A DNA stretch of 64,000 nucleotides from Celeribacter naphthalenivorans (lineage in GTDB: Bacteria; Pseudomonadota; Alphaproteobacteria; Rhodobacterales; Rhodobacteraceae). Numbering within the stretch: position 1 is the stretch's first letter; every line of letters begins with the position of its first letter. The position numbers were made by a program, and so were the translations under genes. The DNA lies in contig NZ_JAIVLK010000004.1 in assembly GCF_020524585.1 (NCBI RefSeq), positions 62,001-126,000 of the forward strand, in the 5' to 3' direction. The notes beneath the pieces are model-generated. The model worked only from the letters and a program-made list of their open reading frames with translations. It did no database searches and was not told the DNA's origin. This document shows positions 17,104 through 50,287 of the stretch, in pieces.

Positions 17104-17122
17104 TCACGTGAAAGAGGGCAAC

Positions 17123-19357: not shown

Positions 19358-19367
19358 GGAGAAAACC

Positions 19368-20090
19368 ATGTCTGTCATAGCGACTTATCCATGTTTAAAG
19401 GGGCGCACCGCTTTGGTGACGGGGGCGGGAGGTGGGATCGGTGACGCCATCTGCAAATCGCTTGTTGCGCAAGGTGTAACCGTTTTCGCGAGTGATCGCT
19501 CAAAGCCCCAGGTGGAGGGCTGTAATCTTCTGGAACTAGATGTGACATGTCAAAGCCAGTGGGCTCATGCCATAGAACGGATTTCGACTGAAGCCGGCAA
19601 ACTGAATGTCTTGGTAAACAACGCAGGCATTTATGCGCCTGCCTCACTGGATGCTGAAACAGCCGAGGGGTTTTCCCGGATTATGGACGTTAATCAATTC
19701 GGTACTTTCTGGGGGATGAAAGCTTCTCTTCCGGTGTTGAGTGATGGCGCATCCATCATAAACGTATCATCGATCGGCGGCATGGTCGGCGATGAGGGGT
19801 CGATTGGTTACACAGGTGCAAAATGGAGTGTTCGTGGCATGACACGTTCAGCCGCTCGCGAACTCGCGTCGAGGAGAATACGCGTCAACACTGTCTGCCC
19901 GGGAATTATCGACACGCCTATGTTCTACGAGAACAACCCTGATCAAGCAAAAGAGTTGCTTGCGCGTGTTCCGCTGGGGGTACTCGGTCAATCAGAGGAC
20001 ATAGCAAACGCTATATTGTTTTTGGCGAGCGATCAGTCGAGATATATCACTGGCAGCGATATCCTTGTTGACGGCGGCTATATGTCATGA
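19368..20090 (+). CDS. Short-chain dehydrogenase/reductase (SDR), second of a pair
   Basis: A 240-residue classical SDR. TGAGGGIG near the N-terminus, NNAGIYAP, NVSSIGG and Y148/K152 in YTGAK give the complete catalytic set; CPGIIDTPMF and ITGSDILVDGGYMS close it. The start is the ATG at 19368; a longer frame overlapping the first SDR is rejected. Paired SDRs with such small spacing can act on successive steps or on opposite stereoisomers (inference). Downstream lies IS debris, so this ends the transcript. Confidence 0.88.
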   Translation: MSVIATYPCLKGRTALVTGAGGGIGDAICKSLVAQGVTVFASDRSKPQVEGCNLLELDVTCQSQWAHAIERISTEAGKLNVLVNNAGIYAPASLDAETAEGFSRIMDVNQFGTFWGMKASLPVLSDGASIINVSSIGGMVGDEGSIGYTGAKWSVRGMTRSAARELASRRIRVNTVCPGIIDTPMFYENNPDQAKELLARVPLGVLGQSEDIANAILFLASDQSRYITGSDILVDGGYMS

Positions 20091-28896: not shown

Positions 28897-28969
28897 GCCA
28901 ATTCCTTAGTGTTGCATCCTAGCCTTGCTATGGTGAATGGCACCTTACGCTAGATGAAAAATAGCCCGA

Positions 28970-28985
28970 CCACCCGAAAGGGTGG
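28970..28985 (+). promoter_or_regulatory. GAAA-tetraloop hairpin in the ALDH leader
   Basis: CCACCC-GAAA-GGGTGG is a perfect 6-bp stem with a GNRA tetraloop, 65 bases before the aldehyde dehydrogenase start, in the divergent region shared with the MalT-like gene. It could be an RNA leader element or a DNA operator. Confidence 0.45.
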
Positions 28986-29049
28986 CTGCTCCGGCTTCCT
29001 ACCCCGCTACCGTCCCCCAACAGGTATCGGAAGTGAAGGGGCACGAAAC

Positions 29050-30537
29050 ATGCAAACAGAGCTTTACATTGATGGTACGTTTGGCCCTGCGGACGACGGT
29101 GCTACTTTTCCTGCCGTGGATCCCGCCACCGAACAAGAGTTTGCCGCCGTAGCCTCTGGTGGCGCTTCGGACATAGATCGTGCCGTCCATGCAGCGCGCA
29201 GTGCTTTTGACAGCGGTGTTTGGTCCGGGCTCTCTCCCATCGTCCGTGCGGCCTTTTTGCGGAAAATTGCGCAAGGCATCATCGAGAACCTAGACAGGCT
29301 TTCGCGACTTGAGACCCAGGATAACGGCAAGCCGTTGCCCGAGGCCAAGTGGGACATCGAGGATGCCGCTTTTTGTTTTGAATACTATGCCGAGATGATT
29401 GAGACCGAAGCCGGCGAGAATAGTCAACTCGTCGATGTCGGAGACAGCCGCTTCGAGAGCGCAATTCGGCGAGAGCCGGTCGGCGTTGTGGCTGCGATCA
29501 CTCCTTGGAATTTTCCAATGCTGATGGCTGTTTGGAAACTTGCCCCTGCGCTCGCCGCCGGCTGCACCGTTGTCTTGAAGCCCTCTGAGTTGTGTTCGCT
29601 GACATGTTACGAGTTGGCCAAGATCATTGATGCCGCCGGTGTGCCGAAGGGGGTATTCAATCTTGTCACGGGAATGGGGTACAGCGCAGGCGCTGCACTG
29701 ACCGCACATAAGCTTGTAGATAAAATTGCTTTCACGGGTTCGGTGGTAACCGGTGAGAAAGTGATGCAAGCGGCGTCTGTCGGCATTCGCACGGTTTCAC
29801 TTGAACTTGGGGGGAAATCTCCGCTGATCGTCTTTGATGATTGTCAGATCGACAAAGCTGTCGAATGGATCATGTTTGGGATTTTCTGGAACAAGGGCGA
29901 AGTGTGTTCCGCAACCTCTCGGGTCTTGGTGCATGAAAAGATCTACCGCAAGCTGATCGCCCGACTAAAGGCGGAAACAGAACGGATCGTCATTGGACCT
30001 GGAACTCATCAGGGCGTCAAACTTGGGCCTATTGTCTCGCGGGGCCAATACGACAAGATCTTGGCCGTCCTGCAGCGCGCGCGAAACTCAGGGGCAACTC
30101 TTCTGACGGGTGGGGGGCGGCCAAAGGGACTCGATCGCGGTTATTATATTGCGCCCACCATCTATACCGATGTGCCTTACGATGCGGAAATCTGGTGCGA
30201 CGAAATTTTTGGGCCGGTCGTTTGTCTCAACTCCTTTGAAACCGAAGCCGAAGCGATTGAATTGGCAAATGACAGTCCTTTTGGGCTGGCCGCAGCTGTA
30301 ATGTCGGATGACCTAGACCTTTGCGACCGGGTGGCCGCAAAGCTGCGCGCCGGGATCGTCTGGATCAATTGTTCGCAGCCTACATTCGTTCAGGCGCCAT
30401 GGGGTGGGTACAAAGCCTCAGGAATTGGTCGGGAGCTTGGGCGGGCAGGTTATGAAGCTTACCTCGAAACCAAACAGATAACACGTTTCGAACACACGCA
30501 AGATTGGGGCTGGTATCAAGGGGCCGAGGTCTCGTGA
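29050..30537 (+). CDS. Aldehyde dehydrogenase (betaine/aminoaldehyde type)
   Basis: A 495-residue NAD(P)-dependent aldehyde dehydrogenase. The catalytic Cys is about C286 in GEVCSATSR and the general base about E252 in SLELGGKSP; the fold motifs PWNFPMLMAVWKLAPALAAG and FTGSVVTGEKV are present. The closest-looking family members act on amino- or betaine-aldehydes (FEYYAEMIETEAGE, IFWNKGEVCSATSR), fitting a step like PuuC in amine breakdown. The start is ATG 29050; an upstream frame to 28954 runs through the hairpin and is rejected. The stop overlaps the start of the next gene by one base, an FAD oxidase that could supply its aldehyde (inference). Confidence 0.9.
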   Translation: MQTELYIDGTFGPADDGATFPAVDPATEQEFAAVASGGASDIDRAVHAARSAFDSGVWSGLSPIVRAAFLRKIAQGIIENLDRLSRLETQDNGKPLPEAKWDIEDAAFCFEYYAEMIETEAGENSQLVDVGDSRFESAIRREPVGVVAAITPWNFPMLMAVWKLAPALAAGCTVVLKPSELCSLTCYELAKIIDAAGVPKGVFNLVTGMGYSAGAALTAHKLVDKIAFTGSVVTGEKVMQAASVGIRTVSLELGGKSPLIVFDDCQIDKAVEWIMFGIFWNKGEVCSATSRVLVHEKIYRKLIARLKAETERIVIGPGTHQGVKLGPIVSRGQYDKILAVLQRARNSGATLLTGGGRPKGLDRGYYIAPTIYTDVPYDAEIWCDEIFGPVVCLNSFETEAEAIELANDSPFGLAAAVMSDDLDLCDRVAAKLRAGIVWINCSQPTFVQAPWGGYKASGIGRELGRAGYEAYLETKQITRFEHTQDWGWYQGAEVS

Positions 30538-34546: not shown

Positions 34547-35893
34547 ATGAAACGTAAAACGACTTCAAACTCCGAAATTACGCCGGCCAAAAGCCGTAGA
34601 AGTTTCTTGAAAGGGCTGGGCGCCACATCTGTTGCAACGCCGGTCGCTTTGGCTGGGCTGAATAAGGCCGCAACCGCGCAAAACAACGATCCGGTGATCA
34701 TCGGCTGCCCGGTGTCTTTGACCGGGATGATTGCGGCGGATGGCATCGAGGTTCGCAATGGTCTGGAAATGGCTGCCGAGGAGCTCAACGAACAAGGCGG
34801 TATTCTTGGCCGTCCGATTGAGGTGCACTTTGCTGATACCGAGAGCAAAGGTGACGACATGGTCATTCAGGCAACGCAACGCCTGATCGACCGTGAAAAC
34901 GCATCGGCCATTATCACCAGCTATAACCTTGAAACCGGTGCGGCTATGATCAATGCGGCCGCCGATGCCGGCATCATCGCGATGCACGCATTCACATCGA
35001 CCACCCATGATGACCGTGTGCTTGCGGATCCTGATCGTTACTGGGGTATCTTCCAGTATTGCCCTCCGGAACGGATTTACGGCGAAGGCTTGCTCGATAT
35101 GATCCAGACTCTTGAGGAAACCGGCAAATTCGACCGGGCCAACGACAAGATCGCGATTATCAACGGGCCGGGTTCTTTTACGGGCCAGATTGCCGCGGCC
35201 GTGCGTGACGGTGCTGCGGAGCATGGATACACTATCTCGCTGTTTGAAACTGCCACCCCGCCCGTGTCCGATTGGGGGCCGGTTCTGGCCAAGCTGCGTG
35301 CTGACCCGCCAGCTGTGATCGCTATGACCCACTATCATGTGCAGGATCAGGCTCAGTTCATGAACCAATTCACGACCAATCCGACGGATAGTTTGATTTA
35401 CATGCTCTATGGTCCGTCGCTGGGGGCCTTCCGGGACATTGCGGGGGAAAACTCGGTTGGCTGTCTTTATTCGTCTGTGATCGGGGTGCTCCAAGACGAA
35501 ATCGGAACAAGCTTTGCGGCGCGCTACCGCGAGCGCTACGGGGAAAATTCGTCCCCCAGTGTCGGTGCGATGGCCTATCAGGCCATGTTTGCCTACGCAA
35601 CGGCTGCGGCTTTGGCTGGTGGCCCAGGCGAGCCCTATGATGACACGCAGAACCGTCTGGTCGCAGAGAAGCTTAAGGCCATCAACATCCGAGGTCCGGT
35701 CGGTACAATGCGGTTCCACCATGATACGCAATCGGCGGTCAGCTATCCGGGTGAGACCGACGATCCGTCCCTTGGGATGCCGCATATCTTTAGCCAAATT
35801 CAAGATGCGAAGGAGGATGGTTACGTCGTTTCGCCGTGGCCCTATGCGGTACGTGACTATGAGACTCCCTCTTGGATCAAAGGGGGGGAGTAA
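34547..35893 (+). CDS. Branched-chain/amide-type ABC transporter substrate-binding protein
   Basis: A 448-residue periplasmic type-I binding protein. A Tat signal (SRRSFLKGLG, about residues 16-25) and hydrophobic stretch end near AATAQNN. The mature domain opens IIGCPVSLTGMIAADGIEVRN, then AAEELNEQGGILGRPIEV, the classic LivJ/AmiC-like pattern of binding proteins for branched-chain amino acids, amides or urea. Start ATG 34547. It is followed within 3 bp by the ATPase gene livG-like and then livF, livH and livM homologues. Tat export of such a protein is less common than Sec. Confidence 0.87.
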   Translation: MKRKTTSNSEITPAKSRRSFLKGLGATSVATPVALAGLNKAATAQNNDPVIIGCPVSLTGMIAADGIEVRNGLEMAAEELNEQGGILGRPIEVHFADTESKGDDMVIQATQRLIDRENASAIITSYNLETGAAMINAAADAGIIAMHAFTSTTHDDRVLADPDRYWGIFQYCPPERIYGEGLLDMIQTLEETGKFDRANDKIAIINGPGSFTGQIAAAVRDGAAEHGYTISLFETATPPVSDWGPVLAKLRADPPAVIAMTHYHVQDQAQFMNQFTTNPTDSLIYMLYGPSLGAFRDIAGENSVGCLYSSVIGVLQDEIGTSFAARYRERYGENSSPSVGAMAYQAMFAYATAAALAGGPGEPYDDTQNRLVAEKLKAINIRGPVGTMRFHHDTQSAVSYPGETDDPSLGMPHIFSQIQDAKEDGYVVSPWPYAVRDYETPSWIKGGE

Positions 35894-35895
35894 GG

Positions 35896-36645
35896 GTGAC
35901 AGTGGAACCTATTCTTGACTGCCGGGGCGTGACCAAAAGGTATGACGCGCTGGTTGCAGTCGACAATGTCGATTTCACCGTCAACCCAGGTGAAGTTGTC
36001 GGAATTGGCGGCCCCAATGGGGCCGGCAAGACCACCTTCTTCGATCTAGTGAGTGGTCTTACGGTGCCCAGCAATGGCGATGTGTTCTACCAAGGCAAGC
36101 CTTTGGGTCGGGGGGCGCCTCACAAGATTGCCTCCATGGGATTAGCTCGCACATTCCAGCTCAACGCGGCCTTCGACAGTATGACTGTGTTCGAGAACAT
36201 GCTGGTGGCACAGACCTTTGGCGGACACTCCGATGGCGGTTGGCTGCTCGCTAGCAGGCGAGACAAAGAACGGGCCTACGACACGTTGGAACGTTTCGGG
36301 CTGCTGGATGTGGCCGAAGACGAAGTCGCCAGTGTACCAGTTTTGGTGCGCAAGAAATTGATGGTGGCCACGGCGTTGGCGCAGGAGCCAAAGGTTCTAC
36401 TGCTAGATGAGCCGGTCGGAGGGCTTACGCCTTCGGAGATTGATGAGTTCCTCGAATTGATGCTGGGCATCAAAGGCCAGATCACCATCGTCTTCATCGA
36501 ACATGTCATGCGTTTTCTCACCGCGCTCGCCGATAGGGCCATCATCATGCACCAAGGAAGGTTCATCTATGATGGCGCACCTAAAGAGCTGGGGAGCGAT
36601 CCCGTGGTGCGCAGTGTGTATCTTGGAAATTCGGAGGTTGCCTGA
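35896..36645 (+). CDS. livG: LivG-like ABC ATPase with degenerate signature motif
   Basis: A 249-residue ATPase from the GTG at 35896 (Shine-Dalgarno GGGGGAG 8-10 bases upstream). Walker A GPNGAGKTT (about 39-47), Walker B VLLLDEP and an H-loop histidine (FIEHVM) are present. The ABC signature, normally LSYGQ or LSGGQ, reads SVPVLVRKKL at about 146-155, so the C-loop that completes the partner's ATP site is lost. Together with LivF (intact LSGGE) this would give one complete and one degenerate ATP site. The rest, GLTPSEIDEFLELM and the C-terminal FIYDGAPKEL, is normal. Confidence 0.87.
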   Translation: MTVEPILDCRGVTKRYDALVAVDNVDFTVNPGEVVGIGGPNGAGKTTFFDLVSGLTVPSNGDVFYQGKPLGRGAPHKIASMGLARTFQLNAAFDSMTVFENMLVAQTFGGHSDGGWLLASRRDKERAYDTLERFGLLDVAEDEVASVPVLVRKKLMVATALAQEPKVLLLDEPVGGLTPSEIDEFLELMLGIKGQITIVFIEHVMRFLTALADRAIIMHQGRFIYDGAPKELGSDPVVRSVYLGNSEVA

Positions 36646-36648
36646 CAG

Positions 36649-37365
36649 ATGACCGCACTTCTAAAGGTAACAGACCTCGTTTCTGGATATCTGAACCGTC
36701 CCGTGCTGCACGGTGTTTCCCTGCAACTCAACAGCGGCGATGCTGTCGCCATTATCGGACCAAACGGTCACGGCAAGACGACTTTCTTGCGCTGTTTGTC
36801 AGGTCTGCTGAAAGCAACATCTGGGACGATCTCGTTTTTGGGACAAGACGTGTCGCATGAACCCGCACATCGGCGGGTCGCGGGCGGCATGGTTCATGTT
36901 CCTCAAGGGGACCAATTGTTTGCCGACATGTCGGTTGAAGAGAACCTGTTCATGGGGGCGTACCGCGCCGAAAAAGGCGCAAATCTAAAGTACCGGTTGG
37001 ATGAGGTTTACGCCCTCTTTCCTCGGTTGGCCGAACGTCGTGGACAGGTAACCAAAAGCCTCTCTGGCGGGGAACGCCGCATGGTTGGGATCGGCCGAGG
37101 GCTTATGGCAAAGGGGGAACTGCTTATCCTGGATGAGCCGTCCCTCGGTCTGGCCCCCAAAGTGATCGAAGAGATCTATGCCGCACTTGTCGAGAAGCGA
37201 CGGGATGGGGCGTCGATCCTAATCGTCGAAGAGGACCCGAGCCGCGTCTCAAAAGTCGCAGACCAGATTTATCTTATGGATGCCGGACATTTTGTCTGGA
37301 GTGGTTCGCCTGACGAAGCCGCTGCGTCGGAAGACGTCATGCAGACTTACCTCGGAGGGAAATGA
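36649..37365 (+). CDS. livF: LivF-like ABC transporter ATP-binding protein
   Basis: A 238-residue second ATPase. Walker A GPNGHGKTT, signature LSGGERR (about 138-144), Walker B LLILDEPSLGLAPK. The H-loop region reads ILIVEEDPSRV, without histidine, as in many LivF proteins (VEQN). It starts 3 bp after livG and its stop precedes the GTG of the permease by 1 bp, so the operon is very compact. It drives uptake with LivG on the cytoplasmic side. Confidence 0.9.
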   Translation: MTALLKVTDLVSGYLNRPVLHGVSLQLNSGDAVAIIGPNGHGKTTFLRCLSGLLKATSGTISFLGQDVSHEPAHRRVAGGMVHVPQGDQLFADMSVEENLFMGAYRAEKGANLKYRLDEVYALFPRLAERRGQVTKSLSGGERRMVGIGRGLMAKGELLILDEPSLGLAPKVIEEIYAALVEKRRDGASILIVEEDPSRVSKVADQIYLMDAGHFVWSGSPDEAAASEDVMQTYLGGK

Positions 37366-37366
37366 G

Positions 37367-38245
37367 GTGGAAACACTTGTTCAACTCACACTTACATCGC
37401 TGACCACTGGTTCGATGTATGCCTTGGCCGCTGTTGGCCTGTCCCTCATTTGGGGCGCGCTGGGCATGCTGAATATGGGGCATGGTGCCTTTATGACACT
37501 GGGCGCATATGCGGCCATGACGGCCATCAATGCTCTTGGTCTGCCCCCATTCCTTGGGATTTTCGTATCACTTATCGTTGGCGCCGCGATTGGCATTCTG
37601 GCCCACCTTTTGGTGGCTAAATGGGTGATAGTACAAGATGGCGCACACACAAACATCATGGTCGCAACGGCCGGTCTGGCGATCTTGATCGAGGATTCCA
37701 TTTTGAAGATTTATGGCGGCTATCCGTATCCACAGCCCTTCAGCGTGACCGGCTCTGTGAGCATTGGGGGCGTGGCGGTAAACCTTCAGTCCGTGTTCAT
37801 TCTGCTTGTCGCCTTGGTTCTGGTCGGCGTTGTTGCATTTCTCCTATTGAAAACAAAGTTCGGTCGGGCCATTCGCGCAACAGCTATGAACCGGGATGCT
37901 GCTCGATTGATGGGGGTCCGGACTGAAACCGTTTTCCTGCAGGTGATGGCGCTTGCCGGTGCCTTGGCTGGTGTGTCCGGCATGCTGATTTCGACCCAAG
38001 CTACGCTTTCGCCAATGATGGGCGGGGCGCCGATGCTCAAAGCCTTTGTGATCTGTGTCGTGGCTGGTCTCGGCAACGTCTGGGGCGCGGGTGTCATGGC
38101 GATTGTCTTGGCTTTTGCTGAGGTCGTAGTCGGTTACTCCATCGGTTTGCACTTCGGCTTCCCGGCGATGCTTCTCATCGTGATTCTGGTTCTCATTTGG
38201 CGACCCGAAGGGTTGTTCGGTAAAGAAAGGGTGGTTCGCCTGTGA
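37367..38245 (+). CDS. livH: LivH-like ABC transporter permease
   Basis: A 292-residue permease with about eight membrane segments. SLTTGSMYALAAVGLSLIWG and LGMLNMGHGAFMTLGAYAA are the standard N-terminal LivH blocks; KTKFGRAIRATAMNRDAARLMG is the cytoplasmic loop that contacts the ATPases; VAGLGNVWGAGVMAIVLAFAE closes. The start is the GTG at 37367, 1 bp after the livF stop. Its own stop overlaps the livM start. Confidence 0.9.
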   Translation: METLVQLTLTSLTTGSMYALAAVGLSLIWGALGMLNMGHGAFMTLGAYAAMTAINALGLPPFLGIFVSLIVGAAIGILAHLLVAKWVIVQDGAHTNIMVATAGLAILIEDSILKIYGGYPYPQPFSVTGSVSIGGVAVNLQSVFILLVALVLVGVVAFLLLKTKFGRAIRATAMNRDAARLMGVRTETVFLQVMALAGALAGVSGMLISTQATLSPMMGGAPMLKAFVICVVAGLGNVWGAGVMAIVLAFAEVVVGYSIGLHFGFPAMLLIVILVLIWRPEGLFGKERVVRL

Positions 38246-39270
38246 AACGCACTCAGAAACTACAAAACCATTTGTTCATTGGTATGGCTATCGTCGCAGG
38301 GTTTGCGCTGTTGCCGATGCTCTCCGACGAGCGGTTCTTCCTCGGACAAGTCATTTTGTTCTTCATTTGGGCGATCGTTGCCATGAGCTGGAATCTCTTG
38401 GCGGGCCATTCCGGCGTGTTCTCGCTGGCGCAATTGTTGTTTGTCGCCTGTGGTGCTTACGGCGTTGCAATGGGGGTTACATATTTCGGCCTCCCCATCT
38501 GGGTCGCAATACCTGCAGCAACTCTCCTGGCTGTCGTCGTTGCTCTGATAATTGGGTTGGCCTGTCTCCGGCTGTCTGGGGTTTATATCGCGCTACTGAC
38601 GCTTGCGATTGCCCAGATCGTTCATTCCCTAATTCTGTCCGATACGTCCTGTCTGGATGGTTCCGGTGTGTCCTGTGTCGCTGTTTCGGGTGGCACACGA
38701 GGCATCTCTGGGTTTGACGGCTTTGGGTTTAAGCCGATCCTCCGTGGCAACTGGATCTTGGGAAATTACTATGTGATCCTCGGCGCCTTTGCTGCTGTGA
38801 TCTTTGCCATTGTCGTCGTGATCCATGGACGGCTTGGTTTGGCCTTCCGTGCCATCCGGGACAATGTCGGCTATGCCTCGAGCCGCGGCGTGGACCGCAA
38901 ACGCTATCAGCTCCTTGCTTTTGTGGTGTCGGCCTTTTTCACCGGGCTTGCCGGAGGCCTCTATGCCGCGCATTTCCAGTTTGCGGGCCCCAGTATTTTC
39001 GAGTTCTCAAACGTGCTGTTCGTCTTGGCAATGATGGTGGTCGGCGGCATGGGCTCGACCTGGGGCCCCTTGATCGGGACTGCTTTGATCATGGTGCTGA
39101 CTGAGATTGCGACCGGATACGGCGACGCAAAAAACCTGCTTCTGGGAGCGGCGTTGATCGTGACTGTTATCTTGATGCCGAATGGGTTGGCAAAGGTGAT
39201 TGACGATACTTTCACCAAGTTGCGCGGTGTTGTCCGGCCCAAGACCATCGGTAAAGAGGTGCGCAACTAA
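38242..39270 (+). CDS. livM: LivM-like ABC transporter permease
   Basis: A 342-residue permease with eight to ten membrane segments. WAIVAMSWNLLAGHSGVFSL and the loop AFRAIRDNVGYASSRGVDRKR (cytoplasmic coupling) are typical LivM. The last part GGMGSTWGPLIGTALIMVL fits. A small insertion with SDTSCLDGSGVSCVAVSGG lies in an exposed loop and carries two cysteines, unusual but seen in urea/amide-type members. It starts with GTG 38242 overlapping the livH stop, and a hairpin follows the stop. Confidence 0.88.
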   Translation: MKRTQKLQNHLFIGMAIVAGFALLPMLSDERFFLGQVILFFIWAIVAMSWNLLAGHSGVFSLAQLLFVACGAYGVAMGVTYFGLPIWVAIPAATLLAVVVALIIGLACLRLSGVYIALLTLAIAQIVHSLILSDTSCLDGSGVSCVAVSGGTRGISGFDGFGFKPILRGNWILGNYYVILGAFAAVIFAIVVVIHGRLGLAFRAIRDNVGYASSRGVDRKRYQLLAFVVSAFFTGLAGGLYAAHFQFAGPSIFEFSNVLFVLAMMVVGGMGSTWGPLIGTALIMVLTEIATGYGDAKNLLLGAALIVTVILMPNGLAKVIDDTFTKLRGVVRPKTIGKEVRN

Positions 39271-39416: not shown

Positions 39417-40046
39417 GTGAAGACACCTACCAACGCACTATCCGTTAAAAAAGTCGGCGCGAAAGCTCGTGCGACGAAAGAGCGCTTGATCGAAGGCGCG
39501 CTTCGGGTTCTCCTCGCTGAGGGATCGGGGGCTTCTACTCGGAACATCGCTAAAGAAGCCGATCTGCCGCATGGGACGCTGCACTATCATTTCGAAACCA
39601 AGGAAGCATTGCTCTGCGCGGTCCTCGATCGGCTTGGGTCCGGTATGGCCCTCCGTTTGCGGACGGGCACGGCCGGATCGAAGAGCTTGGATGAATGCAT
39701 TACCCGCGCCGTTGAGACAGACTGGGACATCGTGAAAGAGAGCTTTGGTGATCAGGTGGTTCAATATGAGCTTACCTTCTACGCTCTACGTCGACCCGAC
39801 GCGTCGTGGATCGCACAGGACCAGTATCGGACCTATATCAAAGCACACGCCGACGTGTTTCTTCTGTTGTTTCCTGATGCTGATGAGGCCGTTCGAGAAA
39901 AGATTCAGCGCCTCGCGAAATTCGTTATGGCGACGATGGATGGCATGATTTTGCAAGAGCTTGTCCTGCCGGGCGAACCGGACCCAGCCGACCTGATTGA
40001 TGCTGCTAAATTGTTCGCGCGGCATTTGGGCTTGATCGAGGCTTAA
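39417..40046 (+). CDS. TetR-family transcriptional regulator
   Basis: A 209-residue repressor-type protein. The N-terminal helix-turn-helix is about residues 15-62: RATKERLIEGALRVLLAEG, then STRNIAKEADLPHGTLHYHFETKEALLCAVLD. The rest is the helical ligand-binding domain. It starts with GTG at 39417, with GGAGG about 10 bases before it; the ATG at 39410 is out of frame. It is separated by one base from the downstream luxR gene, forming a two-regulator operon after the liv genes. It is a candidate regulator of the amidase-liv operon. Confidence 0.85.
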   Translation: MKTPTNALSVKKVGAKARATKERLIEGALRVLLAEGSGASTRNIAKEADLPHGTLHYHFETKEALLCAVLDRLGSGMALRLRTGTAGSKSLDECITRAVETDWDIVKESFGDQVVQYELTFYALRRPDASWIAQDQYRTYIKAHADVFLLLFPDADEAVREKIQRLAKFVMATMDGMILQELVLPGEPDPADLIDAAKLFARHLGLIEA

Positions 40047-40965: not shown

Positions 40966-42021
40966 CTAGCTGATAGAACATGGCCCACCCGCGTGAACAC
41001 GTAGCGACTTATCTACAAAGTTTAGCATGACGGTTGCCAGCGTCTCGTACTGAGGTGTCGAACTCTTCGCGACATCGTGGTGGCAGCACACGGCAGCCGT
41101 GCTACCCAAGTGGCTGGACATGACGCTCACCAGATCGGGAATGCTGGTCACATCGGTCTGTCTGCAGCGCCGGATAAGTAGGTCGCGTCGGATTATAGTG
41201 TCTGGGAAAGCATGCGGTTCGGTGTCATATTTTGACGGTTCTGGAGACAGAAAATGGTTGGTGTGGACCAAAAGGCCAGTTTGGTCGGGAGACACGAAAC
41301 TTGGACCACCGGGGTGAAGCTCTACAGAAAGGGCTGCACTCACGCCCGCTTCGTAGGAGACGAGGTTTATCGAACTCGAAGCTGACACCTTCGCTTGGGC
41401 AAGGTTTCGGGCCGCGACATTAATGTCGACGCCACGGTCTAGCGCCGCTCGGGCAGCCACATGAACTGGCACACCGATCCCCTCACCATCATCACTGTGA
41501 TGCAGGATGGTAAAGAGAAGACCTACGCCGTGTGAATTGATCCCAGATTTTCCGACGATACCGTACTCGGTCATGACCCGAGTTTCCGAACCGTCCGCAT
41601 GGGGGATTTCCCACACCAGCCAGCTGTCCGCGAGGGCATAGTACCAGTCCCACGTCTGCATAGCCAATGGCACGGCGTCGCCGGGGGGGAGTAGGATAAC
41701 GGCGGAACATTCGCCTCTGGTTTGCGCTCCGATACACGCAAGGATTTCGGTCCGGGCGTTGATCGCAGCTACCTCATGCGGGGACAGGCCAGCCCCTTTG
41801 GCGATGCCCTCAATTTCACTCGCGAGTTCAGGCGCGTAGTCCTGGATGCTCTCAAGCGCAGAGCCTCCATACTCTTCGAGGTTCACGGGCGCGTTGGCGA
41901 ATTCCTCGAACATCTGCGCATATTTCCAAACCGTGGCGCGAACCTTTTCCGAATGGTGTGTGCCAAATTCGACGCCGCGACGATAGGGGTCTGTTTCTTT
42001 AGAACGGAAAACGTATGTCAT
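40966..42021 (-). CDS. C45-family Ntn-type acyltransferase/hydrolase
   Basis: A 351-residue protein of the acyl-CoA:6-aminopenicillanate acyltransferase/C45 family. Members are made as precursors that cut themselves to free an N-terminal Cys; the likely nucleophile is C105 in GAQTRGECSAVILLPPGD. Other family blocks are YRRGVEFGTHHSEKV, PHEVAAINARTEIL, MTEYGIVGKSGINSHGVGL and LLVHTNHFLSP. These enzymes cleave or transfer acyl groups on amides. The start is ATG 42021, one base from the stop of the upstream deacetylase gene, so they are translationally linked. It ends the operon that begins with the PuuA-like ligase, where it might do the de-acylation step normally done by PuuD (inference). Confidence 0.85.
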   Translation of the reverse strand: MTYVFRSKETDPYRRGVEFGTHHSEKVRATVWKYAQMFEEFANAPVNLEEYGGSALESIQDYAPELASEIEGIAKGAGLSPHEVAAINARTEILACIGAQTRGECSAVILLPPGDAVPLAMQTWDWYYALADSWLVWEIPHADGSETRVMTEYGIVGKSGINSHGVGLLFTILHHSDDGEGIGVPVHVAARAALDRGVDINVAARNLAQAKVSASSSINLVSYEAGVSAALSVELHPGGPSFVSPDQTGLLVHTNHFLSPEPSKYDTEPHAFPDTIIRRDLLIRRCRQTDVTSIPDLVSVMSSHLGSTAAVCCHHDVAKSSTPQYETLATVMLNFVDKSLRVHAGGPCSIS

Positions 42022-42022
42022 C

Positions 42023-42925
42023 TTAGGTGCTCTGATGAGGGAGTGTTGCGCGCCCTGAGGCGTGTTGTGCTTGGACAGCGTTGGACCGTACCCAGACATC
42101 CAAAGGATGCGCAGCTCGCCAGGCTTCGGCGTAGTCGATGAGGGTCGTGAAATGGGCTTTCCCATCCGCGCTGAAGTACTGGATCAACCGCTCTAGCATC
42201 AACATGCGATGCCCGCGGCCAATGACCTGTGGGTGCATCGTGATCGAGAAGATGCCATCACACACGTGCTGATGAGCGTAGTCAAACTCGCCTTTCCAGA
42301 TTTCTTCCACTTTGGACGGGGCGGACAGGCCATACGTGTCGTTCTCGACAAATTCGAAATGCGGGAAATCGTCCATCAACCAGCTTACGGGCAATTCAAC
42401 CAAGTCGATATTCTCGCCGAAGATGAAAGGGTTCACGTCGTCGAACACATCGCCTTGCCGGGCATAATAGGGCGTAAAATCTGAGCCCATGAGGGAACTG
42501 TCGTAGGCGAACCCAAAGTCTTTCAAAATCCCGATGGTGCGTTCGGAAAAGTCCCACGATGGTGACCGATAGCCTTTGGGAACCACCTGAGCTGCGGCGA
42601 AAATCGCCTCTAAGCCGCGCTCTATATTGCGGCGTTCATCCTGCTCAGAGAAATCCGCGGGGTTTTCGTGCACCCAGCCGTGATGGACGATTTCGTGGCC
42701 TTCATCTGCGATGCGCCTAACGAGATCAGGATAGGACAGCGCAGTATGGCCAGGGACGCAGAAAGATGCCGCGATTTCGTACTTTCGGAGCAGGTCCAAA
42801 ATGCGAGACATGGCAACGGCGCCGAATTCACCACGGGAGATCATCGACGGGTTCCGGCTTTGGTAGGATCCTAGCCACACGGAGGCGGCGTCGAAATCAA
42901 AAGTCAGGCCACATGCCAGGGACAT
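42023..42925 (-). CDS. Polysaccharide-deacetylase-fold hydrolase (PuuE allantoinase/cyclic imidase type)
   Basis: A 300-residue NodB-fold metal hydrolase. Metal ligands look like D10/D12 in GLTFDFDAAS and H82/H86 in HHGWVHENP, with the RSPSWDFSERTIGIL block and a late ITMHPQVIGRGHRM. The HGWVHENP form, the N-terminal LTFDFDA and the MHPQ(V)xGR ending are those of PuuE-type allantoinases and cyclic-imide hydrolases, rather than true chitin or peptidoglycan deacetylases, and no signal peptide is seen. It would then open a small N-heterocycle in the cytoplasm. The start is ATG 42925. It follows the FAD oxidase by about 120 bp in the same operon. Confidence 0.82.
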   Translation of the reverse strand: MSLACGLTFDFDAASVWLGSYQSRNPSMISRGEFGAVAMSRILDLLRKYEIAASFCVPGHTALSYPDLVRRIADEGHEIVHHGWVHENPADFSEQDERRNIERGLEAIFAAAQVVPKGYRSPSWDFSERTIGILKDFGFAYDSSLMGSDFTPYYARQGDVFDDVNPFIFGENIDLVELPVSWLMDDFPHFEFVENDTYGLSAPSKVEEIWKGEFDYAHQHVCDGIFSITMHPQVIGRGHRMLMLERLIQYFSADGKAHFTTLIDYAEAWRAAHPLDVWVRSNAVQAQHASGRATLPHQST

Positions 42926-43046
42926 TATCTGCGCTCCATTTATTGGGGAAAAGGCGGGCGACACAGTGGAGTGGGGAGAGAGCGCGCCGCTCGCGTGAGG
43001 TGTTCGTTTCGAGCCAAACCTTGTCCGATCGGACCCGTAAAAATCG

Positions 43047-44339
43047 CTATGTTCGCGCGTCTCGGAGTTGGTAAAACCACATGCCGAGGGACAGGAGTTG
43101 ATTGCCAATTGTGCGTCCCAGAGGCACGCGCCATTGACGCGCGTTTGCAAGCGCATGGAACTCTTGACTGCCTGTCGTCAGGGCTTCGGCCATGACTTCA
43201 CCGATGATGTGTGAGGTGGCGATGCCGTGACCAGAATAACCCTGAGCAAAGAAAACGTTGTCGGTGATCTGTCCCAGTTGAGGGATACGATTGATCGTGA
43301 TGCCCGCAGTGCCTTGCCACGCAAAATCAATGCCGATGCCCTTCAGGTCGGGGAAGGTCCGTTCGATTGCGGGGCGCAATTTCTGGTCGATATTGGCAAG
43401 GTCGCTACCGGAATAATTGGTTCCGCCCCCGAACAGCAGGCGCCGGTCTGCGGTCAGCCGGTAGTAATCCAGCACGAACCGGGTGTCATAGACGCCGATA
43501 TCCATAGGATTGATTTTGCGCGCCAGTTCCTCGGACAAAGGTTCGGTGGCCACTACCCCAAGAGTTGCGGGGAACAGCAGGCCGTGCAGTTTGCGACCGC
43601 CCAAACGGTGGTATGCGTTGCCCGCCAGCAGGATCTTGCGGGCTTTGACGCTGCCGGTTTTCGTAACCGCCCGGGGGCGCACACCGTATTCGATAGCGGT
43701 GACCTCGGTGCCTTCAAAAATCCGAGCGCCCAAGCTGCGCGCCGCATCTGCCTCACCCAAGCAGAGGTTGAGCGAATGGACGTGCATGTTGCGCCGGTTC
43801 AGGATGCCACCCACATATATGTCGGTGCCCACTGCGGATTGAACAGTGTGGCGGTCCAAAAGATCGACCTCGTGCTCCATGTCATGCGCGCAGGCCTGTT
43901 CGTAGAACTTCGCTAGGTCCTTGAGGTGCGCGTCATTCCAAGCCGCATGCAGGTGCCCAGGCTTCAGGTCGCAGGCGATTTGGTACTTTTCGACCCGCGA
44001 CTTGATAATCTCGTGCCCACGCCAGCGGAGGCTCCAGACAAGCGCTTTGGCGTTATTCGCGCCGAGCGTCTTTGTGAATTCGCGCTCCATGGCCGTGTCG
44101 CCGGAGAGCGAGCCGGTGATTTGGCCACCGTTTCGCCCTGTTGCCCCCCAGCCAATCCGGTTGGCTTCAAGAAGCACGACAGACAAGCCGCGTTCGGCGA
44201 GTTCGATGGCGGACGCAACGCCAGTGAAACCACCGCCGATGATGCAAACATCAGCCTCGACATCGCCGTCGAGCTGGCCGAACGGCGCAATCTTATTGGC
44301 CGTGTGCGTATAATAGGTGTTTTCGTAAGGCGCGAACAT
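43047..44339 (-). CDS. puuB: FAD-dependent oxidase, gamma-glutamylputrescine oxidase-like (PuuB type)
   Basis: A 430-residue DAO-superfamily flavoprotein. The opening YENTYYTHTANKIAPFGQL and the FAD motif VCIIGGGFTGVASAIELAERG (GGGFTG at 35-40) are characteristic of PuuB, as are GWGATGRNGGQITG and FAQGYSGHGIATSHIIGEVMAE. PuuB oxidises gamma-glutamylputrescine to an aldehyde. It lies 12 bp after the PuuA-like ligase, the natural partner. Only about 15 N-terminal residues precede the FAD domain segment, normal for the family. A second DAO oxidase with little obvious similarity outside the FAD motif is at 30537. Confidence 0.87.
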   Translation of the reverse strand: MFAPYENTYYTHTANKIAPFGQLDGDVEADVCIIGGGFTGVASAIELAERGLSVVLLEANRIGWGATGRNGGQITGSLSGDTAMEREFTKTLGANNAKALVWSLRWRGHEIIKSRVEKYQIACDLKPGHLHAAWNDAHLKDLAKFYEQACAHDMEHEVDLLDRHTVQSAVGTDIYVGGILNRRNMHVHSLNLCLGEADAARSLGARIFEGTEVTAIEYGVRPRAVTKTGSVKARKILLAGNAYHRLGGRKLHGLLFPATLGVVATEPLSEELARKINPMDIGVYDTRFVLDYYRLTADRRLLFGGGTNYSGSDLANIDQKLRPAIERTFPDLKGIGIDFAWQGTAGITINRIPQLGQITDNVFFAQGYSGHGIATSHIIGEVMAEALTTGSQEFHALANARQWRVPLGRTIGNQLLSLGMWFYQLRDART

Positions 44340-44351
44340 TGGATTTTCCGG

Positions 44352-45689
44352 TCAAACTGTCGATCTGTAGGTTTCAATTTCGAACTCGGATAGCTCGGTG
44401 CGAAAGCGATTTAGTTCCTGTTGTTTGCAGGCCGAAAAGTAATGAACGAGCCCGGGGTGCAGGAGGTCTTTGGCGAGCTGGGACGCCTTGAATACCTTCA
44501 GGCTCTCATCCCAGTTGGTGCTCAGGTCCGTTCCCGGCACGTCCTTTGAATGTGAGCGAGGAGCATTCCGATTTGCGAGCCCGTGCAGAGCCCCGGCCAA
44601 GATTGCTGCGAGCACGAGGTAAGGGTTTGTGTCGGAGCCCGAGACGCGGTGCTCAAAGCGTTTGGCTACATTCGGTCCGCCCGGAACGCGGATCGCGCAA
44701 GTTCTGTCCTCATACCCCCAGCTGGCCTTCGTTGGGGCAAGGCTGTCGGGAGAAAATCGGCGATAAGAATTCGCATGGGGGGCAAAGATCAGGCAGAACT
44801 CCTGCATCGACGCGATCAATCCGGCGATTGCAAAACCAAGCTCGGGCGATCCCTGGGGCGTACCATCGTCGAAAATATTCTGGCCTTTGGCATTGAGCAG
44901 TGAGGCATGGACATGCATCCCGTTGCCCGGCGCATCAGCATAGGGTTTTGCCATGAAACAGGCCTGAGCACCGTGGCGTCGAGCGACGGCGCGCACGATT
45001 TGCTTGATCAGGAGCGTGTCGTCGGCCGCTTTCAAGGCATCGGTTTGGTGTTTGAGCGTGACTTCGAACTGACGTGGACCGCCCTCGGAAATGATCGAGT
45101 CTATGGCGATGTCACTCTGCTGGGCGAGGGCGTGAATTTCGTCGAAGAACGCTGACGTTTTATCCAGTTCTTGGATTGAGTAGATGTTGTCGAACTTTCC
45201 AGAAGGGGCGGATCGATCCAGCTGGATTGGGACCAAGCGCGCTTCGCCGGGCTCGACGAGGTGAAACTCTAACTCGGTTGAAACGACAGGCGTTAGCCCC
45301 CTGTCCTCATAGCCGCGCAGTACATGGGCCAAGACTTGGCGGGCATCGGAAAAGAATGCCTCGCCTGTATCCTTCTGCATCCACATGGGAAGCAACAGGG
45401 AGCTTGGATCACTGCCCAGAATGTTTATCGGACCACGTCCGATTGGCCGGCAAACCCCATCGAGGTCGCCTTTTTCAAAGGTCAGTCCACTTTCAACGAC
45501 ATCGGTGCCCCAGATGTCCACGCCGGCCGCGGAGAGCGGCATTCTGATGCCGTCCATCGTCGCCTTTTCAAGCAGGTCAATTGCAAGCCGTTTCCCACGG
45601 AATTGTCCGTTTAGATCGCAGATACACGCGTAAAAATGAGTGCCCTTGTTCACGGCTGGGACGTGCTCGTCATTGAGGCTGGTGTGCAT
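44352..45689 (-). CDS. puuA: Glutamine-synthetase-family ligase (gamma-glutamylamine synthetase, PuuA type)
   Basis: A 445-residue GS-fold enzyme. Active-site blocks are SEGGPRQFEVTLKH, GNGMHVHASL, ANSYRRFSPDS and RVPGGPNVAKRFEHR, ending in SGSDTNPYLVLAAILAG. The deviations from housekeeping GlnA (NSYRRF, RRFEHR type) and short N-terminus fit the PuuA/GlnT gamma-glutamylamine synthetase group, which joins glutamate to an amine with ATP. The start is ATG 45689; an upstream frame to 45740 would enter the operator region. It heads the operon ligase-oxidase-imidase-like-C45. The amine could be putrescine-like or another small amine. Confidence 0.87.
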   Translation of the reverse strand: MHTSLNDEHVPAVNKGTHFYACICDLNGQFRGKRLAIDLLEKATMDGIRMPLSAAGVDIWGTDVVESGLTFEKGDLDGVCRPIGRGPINILGSDPSSLLLPMWMQKDTGEAFFSDARQVLAHVLRGYEDRGLTPVVSTELEFHLVEPGEARLVPIQLDRSAPSGKFDNIYSIQELDKTSAFFDEIHALAQQSDIAIDSIISEGGPRQFEVTLKHQTDALKAADDTLLIKQIVRAVARRHGAQACFMAKPYADAPGNGMHVHASLLNAKGQNIFDDGTPQGSPELGFAIAGLIASMQEFCLIFAPHANSYRRFSPDSLAPTKASWGYEDRTCAIRVPGGPNVAKRFEHRVSGSDTNPYLVLAAILAGALHGLANRNAPRSHSKDVPGTDLSTNWDESLKVFKASQLAKDLLHPGLVHYFSACKQQELNRFRTELSEFEIETYRSTV

Positions 45690-45768
45690 GGGCAATTGAT
45701 CTCCACATCGGCGTGAAACCCGGTCTTGCTGGGTTACCAAACAGTCTAGCGGCGAGTTGCGCCTGCGG

Positions 45769-45879
45769 CTCTACCTCATAGTGGGTAGAGGGTCGTGGCG
45801 AAGTCTTTGGCATGTGCTGGGGGCCGGGCTGGCGGACTACCCTTGTGTGGGTATGTGTCGAAGCCTCAAAAGTGGGTAG
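45769..45879. promoter_or_regulatory. CTACC/GGTAG operator-like sites in a divergent promoter
   Basis: Three related sites lie between the divergent puuA-like and membrane protein genes. Site 1 (45769-45790) has arms CTCTACC and GGTAGAG around TCATAGTG. Site 2 (45837-45854) has CTACCC and GGGTAT around TTGTGT. Site 3 (45871-45879) is the half site AGTGGGTAG. Centres of sites 1 and 2 are 66 bp apart. The arrangement suggests a dimeric regulator controlling both directions; its identity is unknown. Confidence 0.6.
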
Positions 45880-45916
45880 CATCCTTTCGTCCAGTTGGGA
45901 GCGCATATTCTATGTG

Positions 45917-47368
45917 ATGTCTTTGGCACGGTTCCGTGCCTGCGTCATGCAGTCGGCCGCAAGTGGCCAAGGCCCCAGTTTCAAGAATGTAGGGGCGGGC
46001 AACGTGCTGTCATATGTGTTTCTCCTTGCGTTGAGCGTCGGCGCCATTGGTGAGATTTTTTCCGACCAAACTTGCCTTCGGATCATTGAGGCCGCTGGTT
46101 TTATAGGTTTTGCGGTGACTGAGCGCCGGCGCCTGAGCATCATGGCGCGATCCTTGGCGCTCTTGAGTGTTGTGATGGCCCTGACGTTCGTAAGCCTCGG
46201 GCGTCTCAGCGTTGGCGATATCCTGAACATGGCGGATCGCTCTGCCTATATGGCCTATCTTCTCATAGCGATGAGTGTACTTCAGGCGGTTGCCACTCGC
46301 TCCGCGATGTTTCAGCGCGCGGGGGAAGTACTTGTCCGTCAGACGGCAGGGAAACGCTATCTCTTGACCAGCCTTGGAGCCGTGGCCTTTGGTTTTCTCC
46401 TGAACATTGGGACCATCGGACTACTTGGGGCGATGATCAGCACCGGACGGAATCTTGATGCGGGGTCGGCGAAAGGGACCGCTGAGGCCAAAAGGAAACT
46501 TCGAGGCATTCTTGCGGTGTTACGCGGATTTTGCTTCGTGCCTATGTGGTCGCCTGTGTCCGTCGCCATGGTGTTGGTGACCATCTACATGCCCAGTGTG
46601 TCCTACGGTAACGTGGCGCAAATCACAGCGCCTTTGGGGTTGGTATTGGTCCTGCTCGGGTGGGGGTTGGATCGTCTTACTCCAACCGACGATCCGACAG
46701 CTGATGCGCGACCTCCAGCATTGCGTCAGACCGTTCCTGCGTTAGGGGTTGTTTTGTCGGTGCCAGTTTTGGCCGCTGGAATTGCACTTCTGTTCAGCGT
46801 GCGGTTTTCCTCGTCGGTCCTGGTCGCGGCCCCGATGATCGCAGTTGCTTGGGCCGGTCTGCAAATGGTCCATGAGCGCCAGACTGCGTGGCACGATCTT
46901 TTCAAAATCGGGTCGGGTGTCGCTCAGAATGTCTTAGGACTTCGATCTGAAATCGTCATATTTTCAAGTGCGACGTTCATTGGGGGTGTCTTGGCGCAAG
47001 TCGTCGACATGGCAGCGTTTCTGGACGCAATGAACGGCCTTGGTCTGACGGGCAGTGTCGCGCTCGTAGCCTTCGCTTGGGCTGCGGTCGGGGCGTCCGT
47101 TCTCGGGCTTAGCCCGATTATCGGACTCTCTTTGCTCGCGGGGTTGCTACCACAGGCGGAGGTATTAGCTATCAGCCCTGTTTCGATGGCCGTAATGTTG
47201 GTCTTCGTTTGGTCCACGGCAATTTGCATCGCGCCCTATTCAGCCTCGGTCCGCTTGTCGGCGCGTGTGATCGGAGGGAACCCGTGGCGTGTTGGTTTGA
47301 TCAGCAATGGGCTCTATGGCTTGCTGTCAATGGGGCTCTTTTCTGCAATTTGTATTTGGCTCGACTAA
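45917..47368 (+). CDS. Multi-pass membrane protein, probable transporter
   Basis: About 483 residues from the ATG at 45917; the next ATG at 45947 is also possible, and the frame extends to 45812 through the operator sites, which argues against that start. It has about ten to twelve hydrophobic segments. Two similar glycine-rich membrane segments, LLNIGTIGLLGAMIS and LGLSPIIGLSLLAGLLP, hint at an inverted-repeat ion-transporter fold, but no family was recognised. A cytosolic loop near residue 185 is rich in Lys/Ala. It is divergent from the puuA-like operon and shares its control region, so it may carry a substrate or product of that pathway (inference). Confidence 0.7.
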   Translation: MSLARFRACVMQSAASGQGPSFKNVGAGNVLSYVFLLALSVGAIGEIFSDQTCLRIIEAAGFIGFAVTERRRLSIMARSLALLSVVMALTFVSLGRLSVGDILNMADRSAYMAYLLIAMSVLQAVATRSAMFQRAGEVLVRQTAGKRYLLTSLGAVAFGFLLNIGTIGLLGAMISTGRNLDAGSAKGTAEAKRKLRGILAVLRGFCFVPMWSPVSVAMVLVTIYMPSVSYGNVAQITAPLGLVLVLLGWGLDRLTPTDDPTADARPPALRQTVPALGVVLSVPVLAAGIALLFSVRFSSSVLVAAPMIAVAWAGLQMVHERQTAWHDLFKIGSGVAQNVLGLRSEIVIFSSATFIGGVLAQVVDMAAFLDAMNGLGLTGSVALVAFAWAAVGASVLGLSPIIGLSLLAGLLPQAEVLAISPVSMAVMLVFVWSTAICIAPYSASVRLSARVIGGNPWRVGLISNGLYGLLSMGLFSAICIWLD

Positions 47369-50209: not shown

Positions 50210-50287
50210 CGTCAGCGCCAATGGGACAGCATAGGGCGATTTGATAAGAGAGGATTTCTGGCTCATCGTAACCACCAAGGAGTGAAG

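Follow-up and report, generated by a model that had tools for sequence, protein, structure and literature searches.

Introduction

In Escherichia coli, the gamma-glutamylated putrescine (Puu) pathway consists of PuuA, PuuB, PuuC and PuuD. Here we analyze a 64,000-nucleotide stretch of contig NZ_JAIVLK010000004.1 (contig 4) of Celeribacter naphthalenivorans, called the window throughout, which carries an operon for a PuuA-type ligase, a PuuB-type oxidase, a NodB-fold hydrolase and a hydrolase of the C45 family. As in the Puu pathway, the gene for a glutamine synthetase (GS)-like ligase adjoins that for a DAO-family oxidase, and an aldehyde dehydrogenase (ALDH) is encoded in the same region; the differences are that the cluster has no PuuD, that both ligase and oxidase score below equivalog cut-offs, that two extra hydrolases are present, and that a polyamine is only one possible substrate. 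With somewhat less than even confidence, we take the operon to encode the last part, ring opening and use of the amine, of a catabolic route that would act on a small cyclic amide or on an amide resembling a polyamine; its reactions, substrate and step order are proposed from the observed genes, their order, their residues and their co-occurrence.

Two other described systems, known here and below from excerpts of the cited reports, bear on this locus. In nicotinate use by Aspergillus nidulans, HxnW, an NAD-dependent enzyme of the polyol-dehydrogenase type, makes a cyclic imide; HxnM, a cyclic imidase with HpPgdA as its nearest known homologue in structure, opens the imide, as deduced from deletion strains and metabolites; and HxnN, an amide hydrolase, frees the nitrogen (PMC9304392). 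The likeness to the window is the sequence of a dehydrogenase, an HpPgdA-like cyclic imidase and an amide hydrolase; the differences are that the system is fungal, that HxnN most resembles fatty acid amide hydrolase and is not a C45 Ntn-hydrolase, and that a gamma-glutamyl step is not named in the excerpted text (PMC9304392). In the route proposed for Paracoccus ZQW-1, N-methylpyrrolidone (NMP) is oxidised to 1-methyl-2,5-pyrrolidinedione, on which an N-methylhydantoin amidohydrolase (NmpA, NmpB), the amino acid oxidase NmpC and finally NmpF, a succinate-semialdehyde dehydrogenase, follow (PMC12866759). The nmpABCDEF cluster, for which one proposed intermediate is a cyclic imide, resembles the window in having paired amidohydrolase genes, an ALDH and an amino acid oxidase, and differs in that the excerpts report no NodB-C45 pair (PMC12866759); moreover, nmpABCDEF is one cluster, whereas the HyuBA, ALDH and oxidase genes of the window form separate gene runs.

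Organization of the operon

The four genes are as follows.

44352..45740, minus strand: PuuA-type (glutamine-synthetase-like) ligase; start taken as the most upstream TTG; PF00120 Gln-synt_C, 288 bits
43047..44339, minus strand: PuuB-type flavin adenine dinucleotide (FAD) oxidase of the DAO family; PF01266, 226 bits
42023..42925, minus strand: NodB-fold hydrolase of the HpPgdA/cyclic-imidase kind; PF01522 Polysacc_deac_1, 65.9 bits; open reading frame (ORF) 42023-43156, ATG at 42925
40966..42021, minus strand: C45-family N-terminal nucleophile (Ntn) amide hydrolase (proenzyme), putative nucleophile C105; ORF 40966-42165; NF040521 C45_proenzyme, 206.9 bits (cut-off 85); AAT, 27.6 bits

They are closely packed on the minus strand from 45740 to 40966, in the order PuuA-type, PuuB-type, NodB, C45, and would probably be read as a single transcript. 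The gap between the ligase and oxidase genes is 12 bp, that between the oxidase gene and NodB is 121 bp if NodB begins at ATG 42925, and the NodB stop (42023) is 1 bp from the C45 ATG (42021), a spacing that suggests translational coupling of the two hydrolases. These coordinates, together with the Pfam and NCBIfam matches, bear out the four families, order and strand given in an initial annotation made from the sequence alone. The names PuuA and PuuB hold at family level only, all NCBIfam equivalog cut-offs being missed: the ligase scores 171 bits as a type III GS (cut-off 470) and 146.4 bits as GGputSyn (NF045547; cut-off 650), and the oxidase 213 bits as AmaA (cut-off 600). The nearest solved sequences to the ligase are glutamine synthetases, with glutamate-methylamine ligase further down; the nearest to the oxidase, by a weak match, is sarcosine oxidase.

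Co-occurrence of the four genes in relatives

We mapped 44 C45 loci (given L numbers where they need telling apart) with tblastn panels, namely 38 named loci found with an alignment of four C45 proteins as query, five plasmid loci (L030-L033 and L035) and the window. The 38 named loci were retrieved via two peptide patterns, which biases the set toward C45 proteins that retain those patterns, and a single C45 protein used as query of genome contigs gave no matches. For the plasmid loci, six of 66 matching records were examined, the sixth (L034, 32% identical) being left out. The flanks seen span 10 kb per side for most loci, 12-15 kb for the plasmids, less at contig ends (e.g. L037, L043, L052, L058 and L065) and 64 kb for the window; since these lengths are unequal, absences in the other loci are lower bounds. 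Counting the window's genome each time, the C45 gene turned up at E ≤ 1e-30 in one of the 20 genus genomes searched and, at E ≤ 1e-40, in three of the 295 genomes sampled from the family and one of the 385 sampled from the class.

NodB is present in 19 of the 44 loci, from Alphaproteobacteria to Actinomycetota, within 40 bp of C45 in 18 of them and 3.6 kb away in L056. PuuA is found in 11 loci and PuuB (at least 50% identity) in the same 11, all of them NodB-bearing; in the ten besides the window, PuuB is 55-62% identical to the window's. Since all four genes thus occur together in 11 of 44 C45 loci, window included, the set is real and not a chance array. The remaining NodB-bearing loci (8 of 19) have no PuuA or PuuB in the flanks examined.

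Several other families recur around C45: short-chain dehydrogenase (SDR) in 19 loci, reductase and Lrp in 14 each, Rieske and VOC in 13 each, APC permease in 11, ALDH and Pot in 10 each and, less often, LuxR and SnoaL-like in 5 each and Hyu in 2. One representative each of VOC, Rieske, Lrp, APC and SDR was checked and lies above its Pfam cut-off; the SnoaL-like label comes from weak matches (21.7 bits, cut-off 22). Every locus with PuuA/B, Rieske, reductase, VOC, Lrp, APC, LuxR, SnoaL-like or Hyu genes also bears NodB, as do 16 of the 19 with SDR, 8 of the 10 with ALDH and 8 of the 10 with Pot; put the other way, SDR, a very common family, is found in 16 and Pot-type genes in 8 of the 19 NodB-bearing loci.

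Three arrangements can be distinguished. In arrangement A (Alphaproteobacteria), PuuA-PuuB and SnoaL-NodB-C45 diverge from each other and are accompanied by genes for LuxR, SDR, reductase and a Pot transporter; Rieske and Lrp genes are in view in three of the four loci (Sinorhizobium BG8 L030, Hyphomicrobiales L038 and Tabrizicola L039), and Albibacillus L053 has its Rieske gene further along the contig, outside the examined flank. The window has in common with these loci PuuA-PuuB (PuuB 58-62% identical), NodB (65-71%), C45 (53-62%) and LuxR (40-44%); its genome gives no match to the relatives' Rieske protein at E ≤ 1e-40. In arrangement B (Burkholderiales, five loci), Lrp and an APC permease accompany NodB-C45-VOC-SDR-Rieske-reductase-PuuD-ALDH, with PuuA-PuuB on the opposite strand. 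Arrangement C (Pseudomonas, Mycobacterium, Actinoplanes and Brevibacterium) has the same core, with PuuA/B in the flanks examined only in Pseudomonas R5 (L048). Two further loci, L035 (a Streptomyces plasmid) and L054 (a metagenome-assembled genome, MAG), have NodB-C45 with VOC and Pot and no Rieske gene in view, and the MAG locus L047 reads HyuAB-Pot-ALDH-SnoaL-NodB-C45, with an ALDH 58% identical to the window's and no Rieske match in its genome. NodB and C45 distances correlate (r 0.67, 21 proteins each), to which we give no weight as evidence, since common descent by itself produces such a correlation.

Two loci hold a second such pair: at L030:25965-29246 and L053:11062-14293, a second NodB gene and a distant C45 paralogue lie on opposite strands beside a gene for a Rid-like protein (PF01042, tested in L030), so placed that the two may have been gained, or duplicated, together. 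In the haloarchaeon Natronococcus (NZ_CP132295.1, 116409-118404), neighbouring matches to C45 and NodB point in opposite directions.

The NodB-fold hydrolase

The best structure match of the NodB protein is HpPgdA (HP0310; 3qbu), with a sequence E of 3.8e-66 and, by Foldseek, an E of 7e-23, a template modelling (TM) score of 0.80 and 34% identity; the model has a predicted local distance difference test (pLDDT) score of 81.6, with low-confidence loops at 17-28 and 187-199. The closest structure is thus HpPgdA and not a polysaccharide deacetylase, the second match (3rxz) being a putative polysaccharide deacetylase with function by annotation only, in agreement with the imidase-like type that the initial annotation had named. 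Numbered from ATG 42925, residues D10, D12, H82, H86, R120, W124 and H231 are present in 21 of 21 aligned rows (the 19 loci and two paralogues). The metal and catalytic residues of HpPgdA are Asp12, Asp14, His86, His90 and His247 (PMC3084791), and their counterparts in the window protein are D10, D12, H82, H86 and H231; the two proteins thus share the NodB fold, metal ligands and catalytic residues, at the 34% identity given by Foldseek. According to the excerpted report, HpPgdA has no open polysaccharide groove and no known substrate: no activity was seen with the polysaccharide-type substrates assayed, nor with GlcNAc, chitotriose, N-acetyl polyamines (putrescine, spermidine, cadaverine), N-acetyl dipeptides and allantoin (PMC3084791). 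Its homologues adjoin genes for a polyamine importer and a D-Ala-D-Ala peptidase (PMC3084791).

On plasmids, 111 records match the window's NodB at 1e-40, and 15 were examined among the 25 matches listed, chosen for annotation and variety. An amidase, nitrilase, amidohydrolase, asparaginase, M20 or ArgE-type gene lies within 4 kb of NodB in 11 of these 15 chosen regions and in none of the other 4, a tally that rests on labels and has no background count, two Haladaptatus regions being near-duplicates. On a Paenarthrobacter plasmid, NodB and nitrilase-like genes are followed by genes for a primary-amine oxidase and an ALDH. In Variovorax SRS16, HyuAB, with 47 and 52% identity to the HyuAB of the window, and an FAD oxidoreductase are encoded roughly 7-8 kb from amidase-SDR-SDR-NodB-PotABC, with a NodB 38% identical to the Burkholderiales type of arrangement B; the linuron literature on this strain held nothing on this locus among the matches listed. 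Where C45 is missing, relatives of this NodB thus often have some other amide or C-N hydrolase beside them; the hydrolase seems exchangeable, and the amine may pass to different oxidases. On four haloarchaeal plasmids (L087, L089, L090 and L097), a TCP-1/cpn60-family gene adjoins, or is one gene from, an HpPgdA-type NodB.

The C45 hydrolase

With the ATG at 42021, the nucleophile is numbered C105, as in the initial annotation, which had called it credible; it is present, with D125 and N255, in 46 of 46 rows (44 loci and two paralogues), and a predicted beta strand (106-110) begins right after it, in a structure model with a pLDDT of 94.7, so that the assignment stands. The closest structure is isopenicillin N acyltransferase (2x1c/2x1d; TM score 0.85, 23-24% identity), itself of peptidase family C45, followed by acid ceramidase and NAAA, with penicillin V acylase further off; as modelled, the fold places the protein among amide-acting Ntn enzymes. 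D125 and N255 align with the Asp and Asn of isopenicillin N acyltransferase, which have a catalytic role. In the ungapped HMMER alignment, C105 is one residue past the fungal Cys, the match being by motif with a one-residue shift, and the fungal protein differs further in being a biosynthetic enzyme. A role of this C45 branch in small-molecule metabolism is not known to us.

Proposed pathway

In the reading of the operon as the ring-opening, amine-using end of a catabolic pathway, the NodB-fold enzyme would open the ring of a cyclic imide (or lactam) and so yield a half-amide, which the C45 enzyme, self-cleaved at C105, would cut to a primary amine. PuuA would then join the amine to glutamate, PuuB would oxidize the product to an aldehyde, and an ALDH (the candidate starts at 28954) would convert the aldehyde to an acid, from which a hydrolase of the class-I-amidotransferase type would remove glutamate; in the window, this last activity would be supplied from elsewhere in the genome (C5:188916 or C5:115560, both on contig 5). 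In the 13 NodB-bearing loci, out of 19, that have a Rieske oxygenase, usually with an SDR, the oxygenase would first convert a lactam to the imide, the window's island having HyuAB. This reading is supported by the adjacency of NodB and C45 in 18 of 44 loci, by the NodB gene in all PuuA/PuuB and Rieske loci and in 16 of the 19 SDR loci, by the closeness of NodB to HpPgdA and the place of C45 among amide-acting folds, by the hydrolases beside NodB on plasmids and the Variovorax SRS16 locus, and by the 55-62% identical PuuB type in the seven proteobacterial Rieske genomes described below. The order of imide first and half-amide second is proposed because the core found here, a dehydrogenase, a NodB-fold enzyme and an amide hydrolase, is also that of HxnW-HxnM-HxnN.

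A wider proposal, which we consider rather unlikely as a whole, is that of a modular catabolic pathway in Alpha- and Gammaproteobacteria, Burkholderiales and Actinomycetota, in which Rieske and SDR enzymes (in the window variant, HyuAB) act on a lactam, followed by an HpPgdA-type imidase and a C45 half-amidase, with the amine entering a clade-specific PuuA/PuuB route. If true, it would give this C45 branch a catabolic role and the orphan HpPgdA family a substrate class; a cluster kept across phyla, tying HpPgdA-type NodB and C45 to Rieske, SDR and the gamma-glutamyl route, also yields a short assay list of imides, lactams and half-amides. Among the titles and opening lines of abstracts listed in searches of the open-licence literature aimed at the cluster, none describes NodB, C45 and PuuA/B together, or NodB, C45 and Rieske together. 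As to the substrate, a spermidine lactam (isoputreanine lactam) is a guess.

Several points weigh against an imidase and half-amidase in this operon. None of the members has a known substrate or activity. HpPgdA left allantoin and N-acetyl-polyamines untouched, and its homologues also lie near D-Ala-D-Ala peptidase genes (PMC3084791). The NodB proteins of Burkholderiales, Pseudomonas and Actinomycetota are just 38-42% identical to the window's and may have a different substrate; 25 of the 44 C45 loci have no NodB in the flanks examined, so C45 acts alone too; and the plasmid tally reflects the regions chosen for it. HyuAB is common to just one of the 43 other loci (L047, 36-39% identity), the window's HyuAB, SDR and Pot genes are 15-27 kb from C45, beyond the flanks seen in most loci, and the SDR and Pot families are common. 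The VOC and SnoaL-like partners are unexplained.

Alternatively, NodB and C45 could free an amine from an N-acylated, non-cyclic amine such as an acyl-polyamine, one removing a small and the other a larger acyl group before PuuA and PuuB act. Polyamine-type transporters in 8 of 19 NodB-bearing loci are consistent with this, as are the polyamine importers near HpPgdA homologues (PMC3084791), the acid ceramidase, NAAA and, more distantly, penicillin V acylase among the fold neighbors of C45, and the naming of many CE4 enzymes among the PDB matches listed as deacetylases. Nevertheless, HpPgdA left N-acetyl-putrescine, -spermidine and -cadaverine uncleaved (PMC3084791), and the SDR, Rieske and reductase genes are not accounted for, which makes this alternative unlikely.

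PuuD and other amidotransferases

The initial annotation had noted the absence of PuuD and suggested that C45 could replace it. The absence is confirmed: PuuD (PF07722) is found neither in the window nor on contig 4, the genome's five matches being on contigs 5 (three), 2 and 1. The replacement would make C45 a gamma-glutamyl-acid hydrolase in PuuD's place, at least in the window and three relatives (L038, L039 and L053), these being the 4 of 11 PuuA/PuuB and C45 loci that have no PuuD or PF00117-like gene in the flanks examined. Also in its favor is the structural match to isopenicillin N acyltransferase as nearest solved relative, an enzyme that acts on an aminoadipyl side-chain amide, one carbon longer than a gamma-glutamyl one.

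The distribution of the genes points the other way. In 7 of the 11 PuuA/PuuB loci a hydrolase of the class-I-amidotransferase fold is encoded beside C45, five times PuuD (Burkholderiales), in a cluster of roughly 15 kb, and twice a PF00117 protein (L030 and L048), so that the comparison of the four families with PuuD proposed in the initial annotation, with 11 of 44 C45 loci having all four and 5 of these PuuD in the same cluster, goes against replacement, as does NodB-C45 without PuuA/PuuB in 8 of 19 loci. Overall, a PuuD-like gene is found in 6 of 44 C45 loci, five with NodB; the sixth is a 34% match in the 8.4-kb contig L052, where NodB and PuuA/B are not in view. Genome-wide, PuuD-family matches at 1e-10 occur in 21 of 24 genomes or records searched, the exceptions being one MAG and two plasmid records. 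The genomes of the window, L038, L039 and L053 each encode, away from the operon, a relative of the PuuD family that shares 35-44% identity with the Burkholderia PuuD. The L030-type amidotransferase, at 1e-20, is in 8 of 14 genomes searched and not in that of L038; in the L039 and L053 genomes it lies roughly 1.5 kb from a second, more distant PuuB.

PuuB itself is missing, at E ≤ 1e-80, from 7 of 18 genomes, of which four (L051, L054, L055 and L056) have NodB and C45, a strict cut-off at which weaker PuuB relatives may exist, L054 moreover being a MAG. Pseudomonas L037 and L040 have no PuuB beside NodB-C45 and a 55-56% identical PuuB elsewhere in the genome, and all seven proteobacterial genomes searched that have a Rieske match also have a PuuB of at least 55% identity (the 55-62% type), in two of them away from the cluster. 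Because NodB-C45 genomes without a PuuB match exist, the role of C45 seems not to need the gamma-glutamyl route, although in Proteobacteria the two seem to go together; this distribution weighs against a second use of C45 in the window. Nor do the C45 proteins of the four loci that lack both PuuD and a PF00117-like gene form a separate branch: in a tree of C45, that of the window is paired with L053 (97/93), L038 with L043 and L030 (100/100), L030 having an amidotransferase, and L039 with L047, which has no PuuA/B, and L044 (100/99).

Replacement of PuuD by C45 was therefore rejected as the leading model on co-occurrence, and is quite unlikely also in the window and its three relatives, for which the lack of such a hydrolase nearby still speaks. 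The initial interpretation is thus partly supported, the best reading being an imidase/half-amidase pair that would feed an amine route, a variant of known pathways; PuuD missing beside a new hydrolase need not mean replacement, a tempting shortcut that the relatives correct.

Two genes on contig 5 could supply the glutamate-removing step. The product of C5:188916 is a full-length member of PF07722 (3.5e-59) and shares 35% identity with PuuD from a Burkholderia cluster; it scores 142 bits with NF008471, below the cut-off of 266, and its gene has no GS- or PuuB-like match nearby. The initial annotation had named a PuuD elsewhere in the genome, used with these genes, as evidence against replacement: a family member is indeed present, and may be used with this operon. 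The other, the amidotransferase at C5:115560, is 41% identical to the L030 PF00117 protein and sits between two GS-like genes (C5:114-118 kb), 44% and 35% identical to the window's ligase. This run of GS-like, class-I-amidotransferase-like and GS-like genes (C5:114200-117650; L018:8202-11703) has the look of a second gamma-glutamyl-type operon of the host.

The surrounding island

The stretch around the operon has a third-position GC of roughly 0.5-0.7, against 0.7-0.8 in the outer genes, and carries, besides a cupin gene, the following features.

13953..18166, plus strand: PotABCD-type ATP-binding cassette (ABC) transporter; ATPase with TOBE_2; binding protein 155/150 bits with the PotD/PotF models, below cut-offs; permeases by position and tblastn
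18602..20090, plus strand: two SDRs; PF13561
21830..25560, minus strand: HyuB and HyuA, hydantoinase/oxoprolinase-type; PF02538, PF01968; nearest NCBIfam caprolactamase (CapA 514 bits, CapB 221 bits, cut-offs 1000)
28954..30537, plus strand: ALDH, candidate for the PuuC step; PF00171, 551 bits; a 58% identical gene adjoins SnoaL-NodB-C45 in L047
30504..31928, plus strand: second DAO-family oxidase; PF01266, 184.7 bits
32981..34444, plus strand: amidase-signature hydrolase; PF01425; NF005687, 473.6 bits (cut-off 428)
34547..39270, plus strand: branched-chain-amino-acid/urea-type (LIV-type) ABC transporter with binding protein, two ATPases and two permeases; binding protein and second ATPase named by position and look
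39417..40046, plus strand: TetR-type regulator; PF00440
40048..40941, plus strand: LuxR-type regulator, which goes with the cluster; GerE, 50.8 bits; a 40-44% identical gene near C45 in L030, L038, L039 and L053

The Pot, SDR, Hyu and ALDH genes are 10-27 kb from C45. The LIV-type transporter is a possible pathway member through its linkage; its putative binding protein (34547) has no NCBIfam match at 1e-10. HyuA and HyuB are presumably relatives of NmpA and NmpB. That the island as a whole is a lactam pathway of the NMP kind, with HyuAB opening a lactam or imide, a DAO oxidase giving succinic semialdehyde, ALDH giving succinate, and PuuA/PuuB, NodB and C45 acting on side products or a related lactam, is very improbable: HyuA, HyuB, an ALDH and a pair of DAO oxidases are encoded in the island, to be compared with the cyclic imide, amidohydrolase pair, oxidase and dehydrogenase of the route proposed for Paracoccus ZQW-1 (PMC12866759; also PMC6987047), but HyuAB is 15 kb from the operon with other operons between, the comparison with nmp is by description and not by protein sequence, and HyuA and HyuB belong to broad families, with matches in 860 plasmid records at 1e-60. 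By analogy, the island may hold two related lactam routes.

Divergent from the ligase gene is a 518-aa ORF (45812-47368), membrane-protein-like by eye, for which neither Pfam (at E ≤ 1) nor NCBIfam (at 0.001) gave a match; it has weak plasmid matches only, hypothetical or unannotated among the 12 of 18 matches listed. On the left, synteny with four genus relatives stops at or before roughly 8.6 kb, just past tRNA-Ala, one relative reaching its contig end; in an empty-site comparison with the same four, the right flank was not found in the 5-20 kb taken from each. Identical 1558-bp direct copies at 9158-10715 and 50203-51760 bracket the low-GC stretch; they resemble insertion sequences (IS), their ORFs looking by eye like IS3-type transposase, and the arrangement is like that of a composite transposon or island. 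Just inside the right copy, at 48906-50209, are two ORFs that by eye resemble a ParB-type protein and an adenine-specific DNA methylase.

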